A stretch of DNA of 25,767 nt from a virus. The position numbers were made by a program, and so were the translations under genes. The DNA is taken from positions 1 through 25,767 of IMG/VR virus record IMGVR_UViG_3300048044_000024. One strand, given 5' to 3'. Shown here piece after piece: positions 7,561-10,625 of this stretch. Numbering within the stretch: the first letter of the stretch is position 1; every line of letters begins with the position of its first letter. Under the pieces are notes generated by a model that saw nothing but the letters and a program-made list of their open reading frames with translations, did no database searches and was not told the DNA's origin.

Positions 7561-8430
7561 ATGACTGCATATTACAACGAGATTGACCCATATGCTGCCC
7601 AATGGCTGCGCAATCTAATCGCTGCCGGGCACATTGCGCCCGGTGTAGTTGATGAACGATCAATTCAGGACATTACCCCCAATGAACTCGAACAATACAC
7701 ACAGTGTCATTTCTTTGCAGGAATCGGGATCTGGTCCCTCGCTTTACGTCGTGCCGGTTGGCCCGATGAGCGCCCCGTCTGGGCCGGCTCATGCCCTTGT
7801 CAACCTTTCAGCGCGGCAGGCGCGGGAGCTGGGTTTGATGACGAGCGGCACCTTTGGCCTGACTGGTTCCACCTCATCGACCAGTGCCGACCTAGCGCAA
7901 TCTTTGGTGAGCAGGTTGAAGCCGCAATTAGACATTCTTGGCTCGACCTTATACAAACTGACTTGGAAGCAATCGGTTACGCCTGCGGGGCGGTCGGTTT
8001 CCCTGCTGCGGGTGTCGGTGCGCCGCACATACGACAACGACTTTATTGGATGGGCAACTCCGGTTGTGAGAGATTACCGAAACAGCGGGGGCGACGGGAC
8101 GAATCCGAGAGATGTGCCGAGACAGACCGGCTTAGTAGGGTGGCCGACTCCGATAGTAAACGACCTAACGGGCAGCACTCACTGTTACAGCGGCAAGCAC
8201 CCGGATGGCACAAACAGGATTTGCTACAAATTGCCAGGGACTACGAAACTAGTGGATGCTGGAGTCCCAGCCCGATTATCGGCAACTGGCCAGTTGAACC
8301 CGGCACATTCCCGTTGGCTCATGGGGCTACCTCAAGAGTGGGACGACTGCGCGCCTACGGTAACGCGATTGTCCCGCAGCAAGCCGAAGCGTTCATAAGA
8401 GCGTACCTCGATGCTAGAACCATGGGCTGA
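7561..8430 (+). CDS. C5-cytosine DNA methyltransferase (Dcm type)
   Basis: A 289-residue enzyme transferring a methyl group from S-adenosylmethionine to cytosine C5. Motif I is CHFFAGIG (residues 49-56). Motif IV is [11 protein letters not shown] with catalytic Cys80. Motif VI appears as FGEQVEA, the glutamate-containing motif with Q in place of the common N. Motif VIII is [11 protein letters not shown], and the C-terminal motif X region reads [13 protein letters not shown]. The target-recognition region between VIII and X is short, and contains [13 protein letters not shown] and [12 protein letters not shown], both typical of phage orphan methyltransferases. ATG 7561 is favoured by AAAGG at 7550-7554; ATG 7540 lies inside the inverted repeat. 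No restriction partner is present, so protection of phage DNA is the likely role. Most of this gene is also read in another frame. Confidence 0.9.
7652..8398 (+). CDS. Overlapping protein of the phage GSTLxKLTWK/GWxTP family, nested in the methyltransferase gene
   Basis: About 248 residues in the +1 frame relative to the methyltransferase, entirely inside it. The start is uncertain: TTG 7649, ATG 7652, 7682 or 7763. The translation shows [20 protein letters not shown], then [20 protein letters not shown], then [13 protein letters not shown], repeated GW(A/P)TP units ([16 protein letters not shown]) and [19 protein letters not shown] near the end. I recognise these as hallmarks of a family found widely in phages and prophages, often near Dcm genes and sometimes loosely annotated as methyltransferase. 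Function is unknown. Such specific agreement would not be expected of a chance frame, so the DNA seems to code twice. No clear ribosome site was found, hence moderate confidence that it is expressed. Confidence 0.6.
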
Positions 8431-8436
8431 TCTAGT

Positions 8437-9507
8437 ATGGCTACCCCCCTATACCTAGATACAGAAACGTTCTGCGAAGTGCCGATAGCGAACGGTACGC
8501 ACCGCTATGCCGAAAGCGCTGAGATCATCATGTGGCAATGGGCTGTCGGTGACGGTCCGGTGATCGTGCGCGACGGCGATGAGAACATTGATGATCTGCT
8601 GGCGTTACTGGCCGATTCGCAATACGAGATCGTGATTCACAACTCAGCGTTCGACCGTACTGTGATGCGCCACAACGGCATTACGATCCCGGTAAACCGC
8701 ATTTTCGATACGATGATCTGCGCACAGGCGCATAGTCTGCCCGGTGCGCTAGGGCTGCTGTGCGAAGTACTGCGTTTGCCGACGGACAAAGCGAAGGACA
8801 AAGAAGGCAAAGCGTGGATTCAGCTTTTCTGCAAGCCCCAGCCGAAGGGCCGCAAGCTGCGCCGCGCGACACGCGAAACGCACCCGATTGAGTGGCAACG
8901 GTTTCGCGAGTACGGAAAGCTGGATATCGTTGCCATGCGCGAGGTGTATAAAAAACTGCCCCGCTGGAACTACAAGATCGGACACGCGGAGCATGATTTG
9001 TGGTGCTTAGACCAGCGCATTAATGATCGCGGCGTACTGATGGACCTAGAGCTTGCGCACTCTGCTATTCGAGCTTGTGCCCGGGCACAGGAGATCCACG
9101 GCGCCGACGTGGCGCGGCTGACGGATGGTGCAGTACAGACGACCGGGCAGCGCGACAAAATGCTTGGATTTATCCTGGAAGCGCATGGGGTGCTGTTGCC
9201 CGACTTAACCGGCAGCACGCTTAAGCGCCTCGTCAACGATCCAGATTTACCTGCTGAACTACGCGAACTGCTAGCGGTGCGCTTGCAGTCCAGCAAGACC
9301 AGCGTCAGCAAGTACAAACGTGTCATTAACGGCGTGTCACCTGATGGCAGGCTGAGGGGGCTGTTAGCGTTTTGCGGCGCGGGCCGTACCGGCCGCTGGT
9401 CGGGGCGACTATTTCAGCCGCAAAATTTACCTGGGCCCACATTGAAAAACGATGCTATAGAGCGCGGTATCGAAGCGCTAAAAGCGAATGCGGAGGACTT
9501 GATCTAA
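8437..9507 (+). CDS. Split family A DNA polymerase, N-terminal part (3'-5' exonuclease and start of polymerase)
   Basis: A 356-residue protein. The proofreading exonuclease is complete in motif terms: Exo I LYLDTETF (Asp8, Glu10), Exo II IVIHNSAFDRT (Asp73) and Exo III REYGKLDIVAM (Tyr159, Asp163). It continues into the polymerase domain and ends just after CGAGRTGRWSGRLFQPQNLP, the counterpart of the TGRL...NLQNIP region of Pol I. The frame then stops at 9505-9507 before motif A. Intact phage relatives continue into motif A in one chain of roughly 700 residues. The start ATG follows the methyltransferase stop by 6 nt with only a weak ribosome site. The second half follows directly with a one-base overlap. 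Proofreading may work alone, but synthesis would need the other half. Confidence 0.9.
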   Translation: MATPLYLDTETFCEVPIANGTHRYAESAEIIMWQWAVGDGPVIVRDGDENIDDLLALLADSQYEIVIHNSAFDRTVMRHNGITIPVNRIFDTMICAQAHSLPGALGLLCEVLRLPTDKAKDKEGKAWIQLFCKPQPKGRKLRRATRETHPIEWQRFREYGKLDIVAMREVYKKLPRWNYKIGHAEHDLWCLDQRINDRGVLMDLELAHSAIRACARAQEIHGADVARLTDGAVQTTGQRDKMLGFILEAHGVLLPDLTGSTLKRLVNDPDLPAELRELLAVRLQSSKTSVSKYKRVINGVSPDGRLRGLLAFCGAGRTGRWSGRLFQPQNLPGPTLKNDAIERGIEALKANAEDLI

Positions 9508-10625
9508 TGCCAACAGTAATGGACTTAACCAGCAGCGCAATTCGCGGCTGCATCACCGCGCCGCCCGGCAAAAAGCTAGTTGTCGCTGACTTGTCGAATA
9601 TCGAGGGCCGCATGCTGGCGTGGCTGGCGGGCGAGGCGTGGAAGCTTGATGCATTCCGTGCTTTCGATATGCAATGGGGGGTGGACGACGCCTGGCACAC
9701 CGGCGGGGACATTACGCGCTTAGCGCTAAAGCGGGATTACTTCAAAGCCGCGCGCACCGACAAGGGGGCTAGGATCACAAAAGGCCACGATCTTTATGCG
9801 CTGGCTTACGCCAAAGCGTTCGGCATATCGCCGGACGCCGTCATGGAAAATAAAAAGCACGGCGACGGCCACATGCGCCAGGTCGGCAAGGTGATGGAGC
9901 TAGCCCTAGGCTACCAGGGCGGCGTAGGCGCGTTCCTGACGTTCGCAGCGGCATATGGCATTGATCTGGAGGCCATGGGCGCAGCGGCGATTGGCGGGCT
10001 GCCCCCAGATGTGCGCGCCGAGGCTGAGAGCTTCCTAGCCTGGCAGCTTGATATGGGCGGTACGCAGCACGGCCTATCTGATACCGCGTACGTGGTGTGC
10101 GAGTCCTTCAAGCGCTTGTGGCGCGCGGCGCACCCCAATGTCGTCGCATACTGGCACGCGCTGGAGCGCACCTGCATTGCTGCGGTGAAGCAACCCGGCG
10201 TTACCTTCGACTGCGCGAAACACAAGATCCGGCGTGATGGGGCCTGGCTGCGCATCCGTTTGCCCAGCGGCCGTTATTTATGTTACCCATCGCCGCAGGT
10301 TACTGATAGCGACAAGCTATCGTACATGGGCATGAACCAGTACACGCGGCAATGGTCCCGGCTCGGCACATACGGCGGGAAACTGGCGGAGAACTGCACC
10401 CAGGCGGCGGCGCGCGACGTGCTCGCGAGTAGCATGCAATCGATTGAGGACGCCGGGTACGAAATCGCGCTGACGGTCCACGATGAGGATATTACCGAAG
10501 CCCCTGATAGTCCGGACTATAACTGCGAGCATCTAGCCGCGCTGATGGCAACGCCCCCCACCTGGGCGCTAGACCTTCCGCTGGCCGCCGCTGGTTTCGA
10601 GGCGTACCGCTACAGAAAAGACTAG
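9507..10625 (+). CDS. Split family A DNA polymerase, C-terminal part (palm and fingers)
   Basis: A 372-residue protein carrying the polymerase catalytic motifs. Motif A is VVADLSNIEGR (Asp28, Glu33). Motif B is MRQVGKVMELALGYQGG (Arg124, Lys128, Tyr136). Motif C is LTVHDEDITE (His325, Asp326, Glu327). The ATG overlaps the previous stop (TAATG, 9505-9509) and has a full GGAGG at 9492-9496, 10 nt upstream, inside the N-terminal gene. The same frame is open upstream to 9372 but does not encode polymerase there. TAATG junctions also occur at other real gene borders in this window, which supports a genuine two-gene arrangement. There is no intein or intron sequence. A single missing base would be the alternative explanation. 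Confidence 0.9.
   Translation: MPTVMDLTSSAIRGCITAPPGKKLVVADLSNIEGRMLAWLAGEAWKLDAFRAFDMQWGVDDAWHTGGDITRLALKRDYFKAARTDKGARITKGHDLYALAYAKAFGISPDAVMENKKHGDGHMRQVGKVMELALGYQGGVGAFLTFAAAYGIDLEAMGAAAIGGLPPDVRAEAESFLAWQLDMGGTQHGLSDTAYVVCESFKRLWRAAHPNVVAYWHALERTCIAAVKQPGVTFDCAKHKIRRDGAWLRIRLPSGRYLCYPSPQVTDSDKLSYMGMNQYTRQWSRLGTYGGKLAENCTQAAARDVLASSMQSIEDAGYEIALTVHDEDITEAPDSPDYNCEHLAALMATPPTWALDLPLAAAGFEAYRYRKD

Follow-up and report, generated by a model that had tools for sequence, protein, structure and literature searches.

A phage C5-cytosine methyltransferase locus open in two frames: evidence for a nested second protein as its probable recognition subunit

Background

A C5-cytosine methyltransferase gene of an uncultivated virus, found in a record of 25,767 bases that was analysed as a whole (hereafter the window), raises the question of why a second, +1 reading frame remains open inside it and what this hidden frame may encode. 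Long same-strand overlaps with selection shown in both frames have rarely been established in prokaryotic systems, and the present overlap recurs in hundreds of loci, which makes it well suited to the study of DNA shared by two proteins. Reading such loci as two-subunit enzymes would also explain the many phage 'dcm' genes that seemingly contain neither a recognition domain nor motif IX, as well as the cases in which annotations call the hidden frame a gene.

The SPbeta-type phage C5 methyltransferases are multispecific and carry tandem recognition domains, and in M.EcoHK31I the small polypeptide is encoded within the gene of the large one, in another frame. M.EcoHK31I (YGGCCR) is a C5 methyltransferase of two polypeptides (Lee, Kam and Shaw 1995, as described in PMC3404938) with motifs I-VIII and X in the large subunit and motif IX in the small one, the recognition domain being predicted in the large subunit; it has also been described as a naturally split methyltransferase (PMC3439449). 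M.AquI alpha/beta is a C5 methyltransferase made of two complementing chains, the small subunit holding half of the variable region together with motifs IX and X (PMC3404938).

Results

Frame 1 encodes a methyltransferase core without motif IX

The frame-1 gene (alpha, annotated here as dcm) starts at ATG 7561, or alternatively at TTG 7528, and ends at 8430 according to the ORF listing. Its product matches PF00145 (2.8e-16, over motifs IV-VIII only) and phrog_363 (1.6e-85), and motifs I, IV, VI (as GEQV), VIII and X were located in the frame 1 of the window, where motif IX was looked for and is absent (Table 1). In the AlphaFold2 model of alpha, the core and the motif X helix are ordered and residues ~167-256, around the expected place of motif IX, are mostly disordered; M.HhaI and M.HaeIII, which match the core, are among its closest solved folds. 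Note that the GEQ of motif VI is invariant across the 96-member alignment of the window class, and that ENV or ENS is found at this place in the other nested classes.

Table 1. Positions of the features of the two overlapping frames in the window
Feature	Position	Strand	Evidence
alpha, C5-cytosine methyltransferase, 289 aa, motifs I-VIII and X, no motif IX	7561..8430	+	PF00145, phrog_363, motif positions, AlphaFold2 core
alpha motif I (FAGIGIW)	7714..7734	+	motif position
alpha motif IV (PCQPFS, catalytic Cys)	7795..7812	+	motif position; invariant in alignment A2
alpha motif VI, GEQV instead of ENV	7906..7917	+	motif position
alpha motif VIII (QRLYW)	8035..8049	+	motif position
alpha motif X (GNAIVP)	8359..8376	+	motif position; helix 272-288 with pLDDT above 90
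beta, nested +1-frame protein, start ATG 7652 or ATG 7682	7652..8398	+	open frame, shuffle test, selection, phrog_1008 (8e-28)
candidate beta ribosome-binding site and start: AGGA 7667-7670, 11 nt, ATG 7682-7684	7667..7684	+	inferred for the window
beta N-terminal part, conserved, over alpha motifs IV-VIII; helix and hairpin (7940-7969; LLRVSV 8003-8020)	7805..8062	+	both frames constrained at codons 82-167; locally confident AlphaFold2
beta cassette 1 (30 residues)	8048..8137	+	cassette comparison, position
beta cassette 2 (39 residues), relatives in L003, L157 and Salmonella phage epsilon15	8138..8254	+	cassette comparison, position
motif IX assigned to beta (20-residue segment)	8291..8350	+	alignment of L353 to M.HhaI 270-318; position

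The +1 frame is open beyond chance and carries its own start signal

The nested frame (beta) runs from TTG 7649/ATG 7652 to 8398, i.e., 249 open codons. Its openness was compared with a null in which synonymous codons were shuffled within each gene, thus keeping the frame-1 protein and its codon usage, and none of 300 such shuffles of the window gene attained a +1 run of this length (null mean of 113 codons). Over 80 loci, comprising the window and homologues picked by frame 1 alone, the median of the longest +1 run was 290 codons, about twice the null mean (140), and the +2 frame did not exceed chance (56 codons against 72). In addition, the codon alignment of 76 homologues is free of +1 stops from dcm codon 44 to codon 262, and its frame-1 third positions hardly change, even at codons whose frame-1 residue differs among homologues; at codon 128, for example, the frame-1 residue is conserved at 49% and the +1 serine at 99%. 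Dual coding is established by this sequence evidence, and the overlap proposed in a sequence-only reading of the window is real: both ORFs are present, and the +1 ORF is longer than the shuffles allow and free of the second-frame stops which, if common among homologues, that reading took as speaking against it.

The beta product has matches in phrog_1008 (8e-28) and phrog_31772 (1e-20), which both bear the label 'DNA methyltransferase', and none in Pfam, NCBIfam or PDB. A tblastn search gave 228 phage records for frame 1 (E below 1e-10) and 216 for the +1 protein (E below 1e-3). Most homologues show an AGGAG-N8-ATG arrangement, slightly upstream of the position of the candidate signal in the window: a +1-frame ATG lies at dcm codon 37 in 124 of 144 homologues, with AGGAG just 5' of it in 69 (e.g., gaaAGGAGtattgaagATG). 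The same signal leaves its trace in frame 1, where the arginine codon 33 is the rare AGG in 71 of 142 homologues because the AGGAG of beta must be spelled there, AGG being used just 3-5 times at three other arginine positions within the first 71 codons. The window itself does not have the consensus signal, and its candidate starts are ATG 7682, with AGGA 11 nt before it, and ATG 7652. The AlphaFold2 model of beta is poor overall, with a helix, a hairpin (7940-7969/LLRVSV) and C-terminal helices that are locally confident, and Foldseek returned only insignificant matches for this low-confidence model.

Beta carries motif IX and an array of exchangeable cassettes

A 13-residue segment of beta and its relatives, LNPxWVEWLMGxPxGW, correspond to methyltransferase motif IX, as can be read from L353, a relative in which this motif stands in frame with the catalytic domain and in which LNPDWVEWLMGYPISW...GNSVVP aligns to M.HhaI 270-318 (LHPRECARVMGYPDSY...GNSVV). 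PF00145 does not recognise motif IX on beta, and a chain assembled on paper from pieces of both proteins scored no higher with this profile (56.8 against 60.3 bits); the assignment therefore rests on the L353-M.HhaI alignment. By this alignment, motif IX lies in beta and is missing from alpha. The motif is variable (its variants include YSPVQAAEFQETMMGFPKGW), and loci were therefore classified by profile.

Upstream of motif IX, the beta proteins of the window class contain one to four tandem units, each of which opens with a GWxTP-like motif. These units have been exchanged between loci: L006 and L121, as well as L073 and L079, have nearly identical catalytic domains and different units, and one unit can recur on backbones that are only 53-66% identical, at differing positions of the array. 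The GWxTP cassettes thus behave as exchangeable units, which their comparison suggests to be recognition units, with a putative role in DNA reading. The +1 motifs that the sequence-only reading had singled out (a 10-residue segment, GWxTP and the motif IX segment) are indeed among the most conserved +1 residues. As a side observation, the nearest relative of the window, L082, shows 100% identity to it in the 1.9 kb compared, apart from one gap: about 41-42 bases (3229-3270 in L082) are absent from the window at 8288-8291, just before motif IX, which leaves both frames open and removes a semi-conserved segment (frame 1 CDADWLPCRDGKWR, frame 2 VMLTGYLAGMESGG).

Selection separates the two frames between motifs VIII and IX

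Substitutions were sorted by their effect in both frames with an approximate OLGenie-style count over independent locus pairs, the main set being 35 pairs with 80-99.5% identity. Under a simple correction model, with some classes near saturation, the N-terminal control outside the overlap gave 0.09 for frame 1 and 0.99 for the +1 frame, and codons 82-167 (motifs IV-VIII) gave 0.16 and 0.38, so that both frames are constrained there. At codons 168-235 (motifs VIII-IX), where the alignment is imperfect because cassettes are exchanged, frame 1 reached 0.99 (0.84-1.22) and the +1 frame 0.34 (0.23-0.44), and codons 236-266 gave 0.33 and 0.28. The prophage and other nested sets showed 0.74-0.78 for frame 1 and 0.40-0.50 for the +1 frame between motifs VIII and IX, and 0.18-0.28 for the +1 frame at motif IX. 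Beta is under purifying selection, and frame 1 between motifs VIII and IX is near neutral but, at 0.74-0.78 in the larger sets, not fully neutral. Frame 1 is therefore constrained up to motif VIII and close to filler between motifs VIII and IX; at this position, where a methyltransferase has its recognition domain, the constraint falls on the +1 frame. The earlier statement that both frames are conserved thus does not hold for the stretch between motifs VIII and IX.

The overlap recurs in several layouts

Among 509 sampled loci classified by profile, 427 have a beta nested at +1; some contigs belong to more than one set, and the total is not a count of independent lineages. This arrangement was found in 77 of 79 loci selected by the window frame 1, in all 80 selected by the window frame 2, in 73 of 80 bacterial genome loci, and in 100 of 120 loci found only through a DNA pattern for LNPxWVEWLMG; it was also found in 48 of 70 loci selected by frame 1 of Lacticaseibacillus phage R9.1 and in 49 of 80 selected by a query with motif IX in frame. 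Most hosts of these phage and prophage loci are Proteobacteria; one Gram-positive genus also occurs, as do a few MAGs with other assignments. Searches with beta fell mostly on dcm genes, the match being nested or overlapping at +1 in 75 of 80 cases in species genomes and 106 of 120 in viral contigs, and, among the loci covered, neither profile A1 in the species-genome collection nor the DNA pattern in viral contigs gave a clear case of beta as a gene of its own.

In a split class (L277, L288, L289 and L325), frame 1 stops 7-28 codons past motif VIII, and the overlapping +1 beta contains PTP units and motif IX, as well as motif X in L277, L288 and L289; alpha is therefore not a complete enzyme without beta there. 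In the L353 class, motifs IX and X are in frame 1, and the +1 ORF (median of 174 codons, with LPTP units) ends near motif IX, the stretch between motifs VIII and IX being again constrained in the +1 frame (0.13). Motif IX is thus found in beta in the nested loci and in alpha in the L353 class, and the cassette region is therefore the element that stays on the second frame. The betas of the window, near-total-overlap (MSWLYSR...), split and L353 classes are all recognised by phrog_1008.

Other arrangements were also noted. A second large class (L262, L263, L267, L274, L281 and L316), whose alpha begins with MNELxLFAGAGGG, has alpha and beta (MSWLYSR and similar) that overlap over nearly the full length of both, with starts a few bases apart. 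L423 and L426 are more distant methyltransferases of about 190-200 aa that end after motif VIII, with motifs IX and X in a downstream +2 ORF and a third, +1 ORF (YFLSSKACEGILRRANRRGK) overlapping the end of alpha. The prophage loci L172 and L218 have an early stop in alpha with beta open, and both frames are broken in L190 and L242.

Discussion

Our results make it quite probable that the locus encodes a two-subunit C5-cytosine methyltransferase, in which alpha would be catalytic and the nested beta would provide target recognition and motif IX, so that both subunits of one phage enzyme would be written on the same DNA. Alpha would bind AdoMet, carry out catalysis with motifs I-VIII and contribute motif X, its stretch from motif VIII to motif X being roughly a filler held open in frame 1. 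Beta would be made from its own internal start codon and pack onto alpha, its tandem exchangeable GWxTP cassettes would choose the DNA sequence, and its motif IX would anchor the recognition domain. The assembled enzyme would methylate the DNA of the phage, in all likelihood as a protection from host restriction, and a swap of cassettes would protect different sites. Counting against this two-subunit reading are the poor beta model, which has no structural match, the motif IX that PF00145 does not see, and the PF00145 score that the joined pieces did not improve. The incomplete neutrality of frame 1 between motifs VIII and IX in the larger sets, the missing consensus start signal of beta in the window and the recognition domain of M.EcoHK31I, which was predicted in the large subunit, also speak against it.

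As the sequence-only reading had suggested among other options, beta is probably a methyltransferase partner, and the content of the two frames supports this well, since the +1 protein holds the motif IX and cassette region that are absent from frame 1 and, in the split class, motif X too. Its two other options fared less well. Nothing points to an anti-restriction factor acting alone, and an origin by overprinting seems plausible over motifs IV-VIII, whereas motif IX and the recognition region resemble parts of a methyltransferase placed in another frame rather than new inventions.

A programmed frameshift would make a separate beta unnecessary, as ribosomes would read frame 1 to about motif VIII and then slip to +1, giving one chain with the cassettes and motif IX. 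The order of the parts (I-VIII in frame 1, then cassettes and IX in +1, with motif X of the split class also in +1) fits such a fused chain. However, the +1 frame is already constrained far upstream, over motifs IV-VIII (0.38), in a stretch that a fusion after motif VIII would leave untranslated; AGGAG and ATG are conserved at codon 37; and the motif X of nested loci lies in frame 1, which would require a second shift. We thus regard a frameshift as unlikely.

It is likewise improbable that beta is an independent protein, such as a regulator or an anti-restriction factor, that merely shares DNA with a self-sufficient methyltransferase. The conserved N-terminal part of beta, which is without known homologues, may indeed have a further role, but the alpha of the nested loci has neither motif IX nor a constrained recognition region, motif IX is carried by beta, the alpha of the split class is also without motif X, and beta was not clearly seen as a free-standing gene in the collections searched. 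Finally, a mirror-translation artefact, i.e., a +1 conservation that merely echoes that of frame 1, can be rejected since, even if frame-1 composition alone opens +1 over +2 (140 against 72 codons in the shuffles), the observed +1 runs are about twice this null, third positions stay constant at codons with varying frame-1 residues (e.g., codon 128) and the near-neutral frame between motifs VIII and IX is frame 1; the matches of the second frame are therefore not only mirror translations of dcm genes, an outcome that the sequence-only reading had held against its own proposal.

The two-subunit reading has a close precedent in M.EcoHK31I. Its large subunit has motifs I-VIII and X without IX, and the small one has IX, as proposed here. 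In both cases the small subunit lies inside the gene of the large one, in another frame. The present enzyme would thus work like M.EcoHK31I, but its recognition region would lie in the nested beta, as judged from cassette swapping and from selection, the stretch between motifs VIII and IX being constrained in beta and near neutral in alpha, and not in the large subunit as predicted for M.EcoHK31I. M.EcoHK31I also belongs to a restriction-modification system, whereas the present locus is found in a phage. Compared to M.AquI, the nested loci differ by having motif X in alpha. The split class (L277 and others), with IX and X in beta, comes nearer to M.AquI, but its beta overlaps the whole catalytic region of alpha in +1. 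Alpha resembles the single-chain C5 methyltransferases (M.HhaI and Dcm; PF00145) in its catalytic motifs and core fold, but its frame has neither motif IX nor a constrained recognition region. As in the SPbeta-type enzymes, a variable number of exchangeable tandem units stands between motifs VIII and IX; here, however, the units are in another frame and on another protein, and the specificity of each unit is putative.

In GenBank, the two overlapping genes are already both annotated, without comment, for Escherichia phage K1ind3 and Xanthomonas phage PhiXhv-18, and the database entries holding beta bear generic labels only (phrog_1008 'DNA methyltransferase', K1ind3 ORF29 'Mte8-like', and the double annotation of PhiXhv-18), with no description of the overlap, the motif partition or the role of beta in these records. 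In open-access full text, we found no description of a phage-wide nested family, a hidden-frame recognition region or cassette exchange, nor of the overlap beyond M.EcoHK31I, although an earlier description outside this literature is possible. M.EcoHK31I is the precedent for the layout, and the phage-wide breadth and the cassette swapping in a hidden frame are apparently new as judged from open-access text.

At a larger scale, we are inclined to see in these loci a phage-wide class of C5 methyltransferases whose specificity would reside in a second, +1-frame protein, in tandem cassettes that recombine between phages and must be open in two frames at once. Living sequences still include all three layouts (motif IX in frame 1, nested, and split), and the route between one-frame and two-frame coding may therefore be readable from them. 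Should the cassettes determine specificity, the +1 frame would be expected to predict the methylation motif of many phages, and frame 1 expressed alone should fail.

Note that a DNA polymerase A-like phage gene of the window also appears as two ORFs, at 8437-9507 and 9507-10625, which meet at TAATG (stop and start with one base in common); this split may be natural or a sequencing frameshift.
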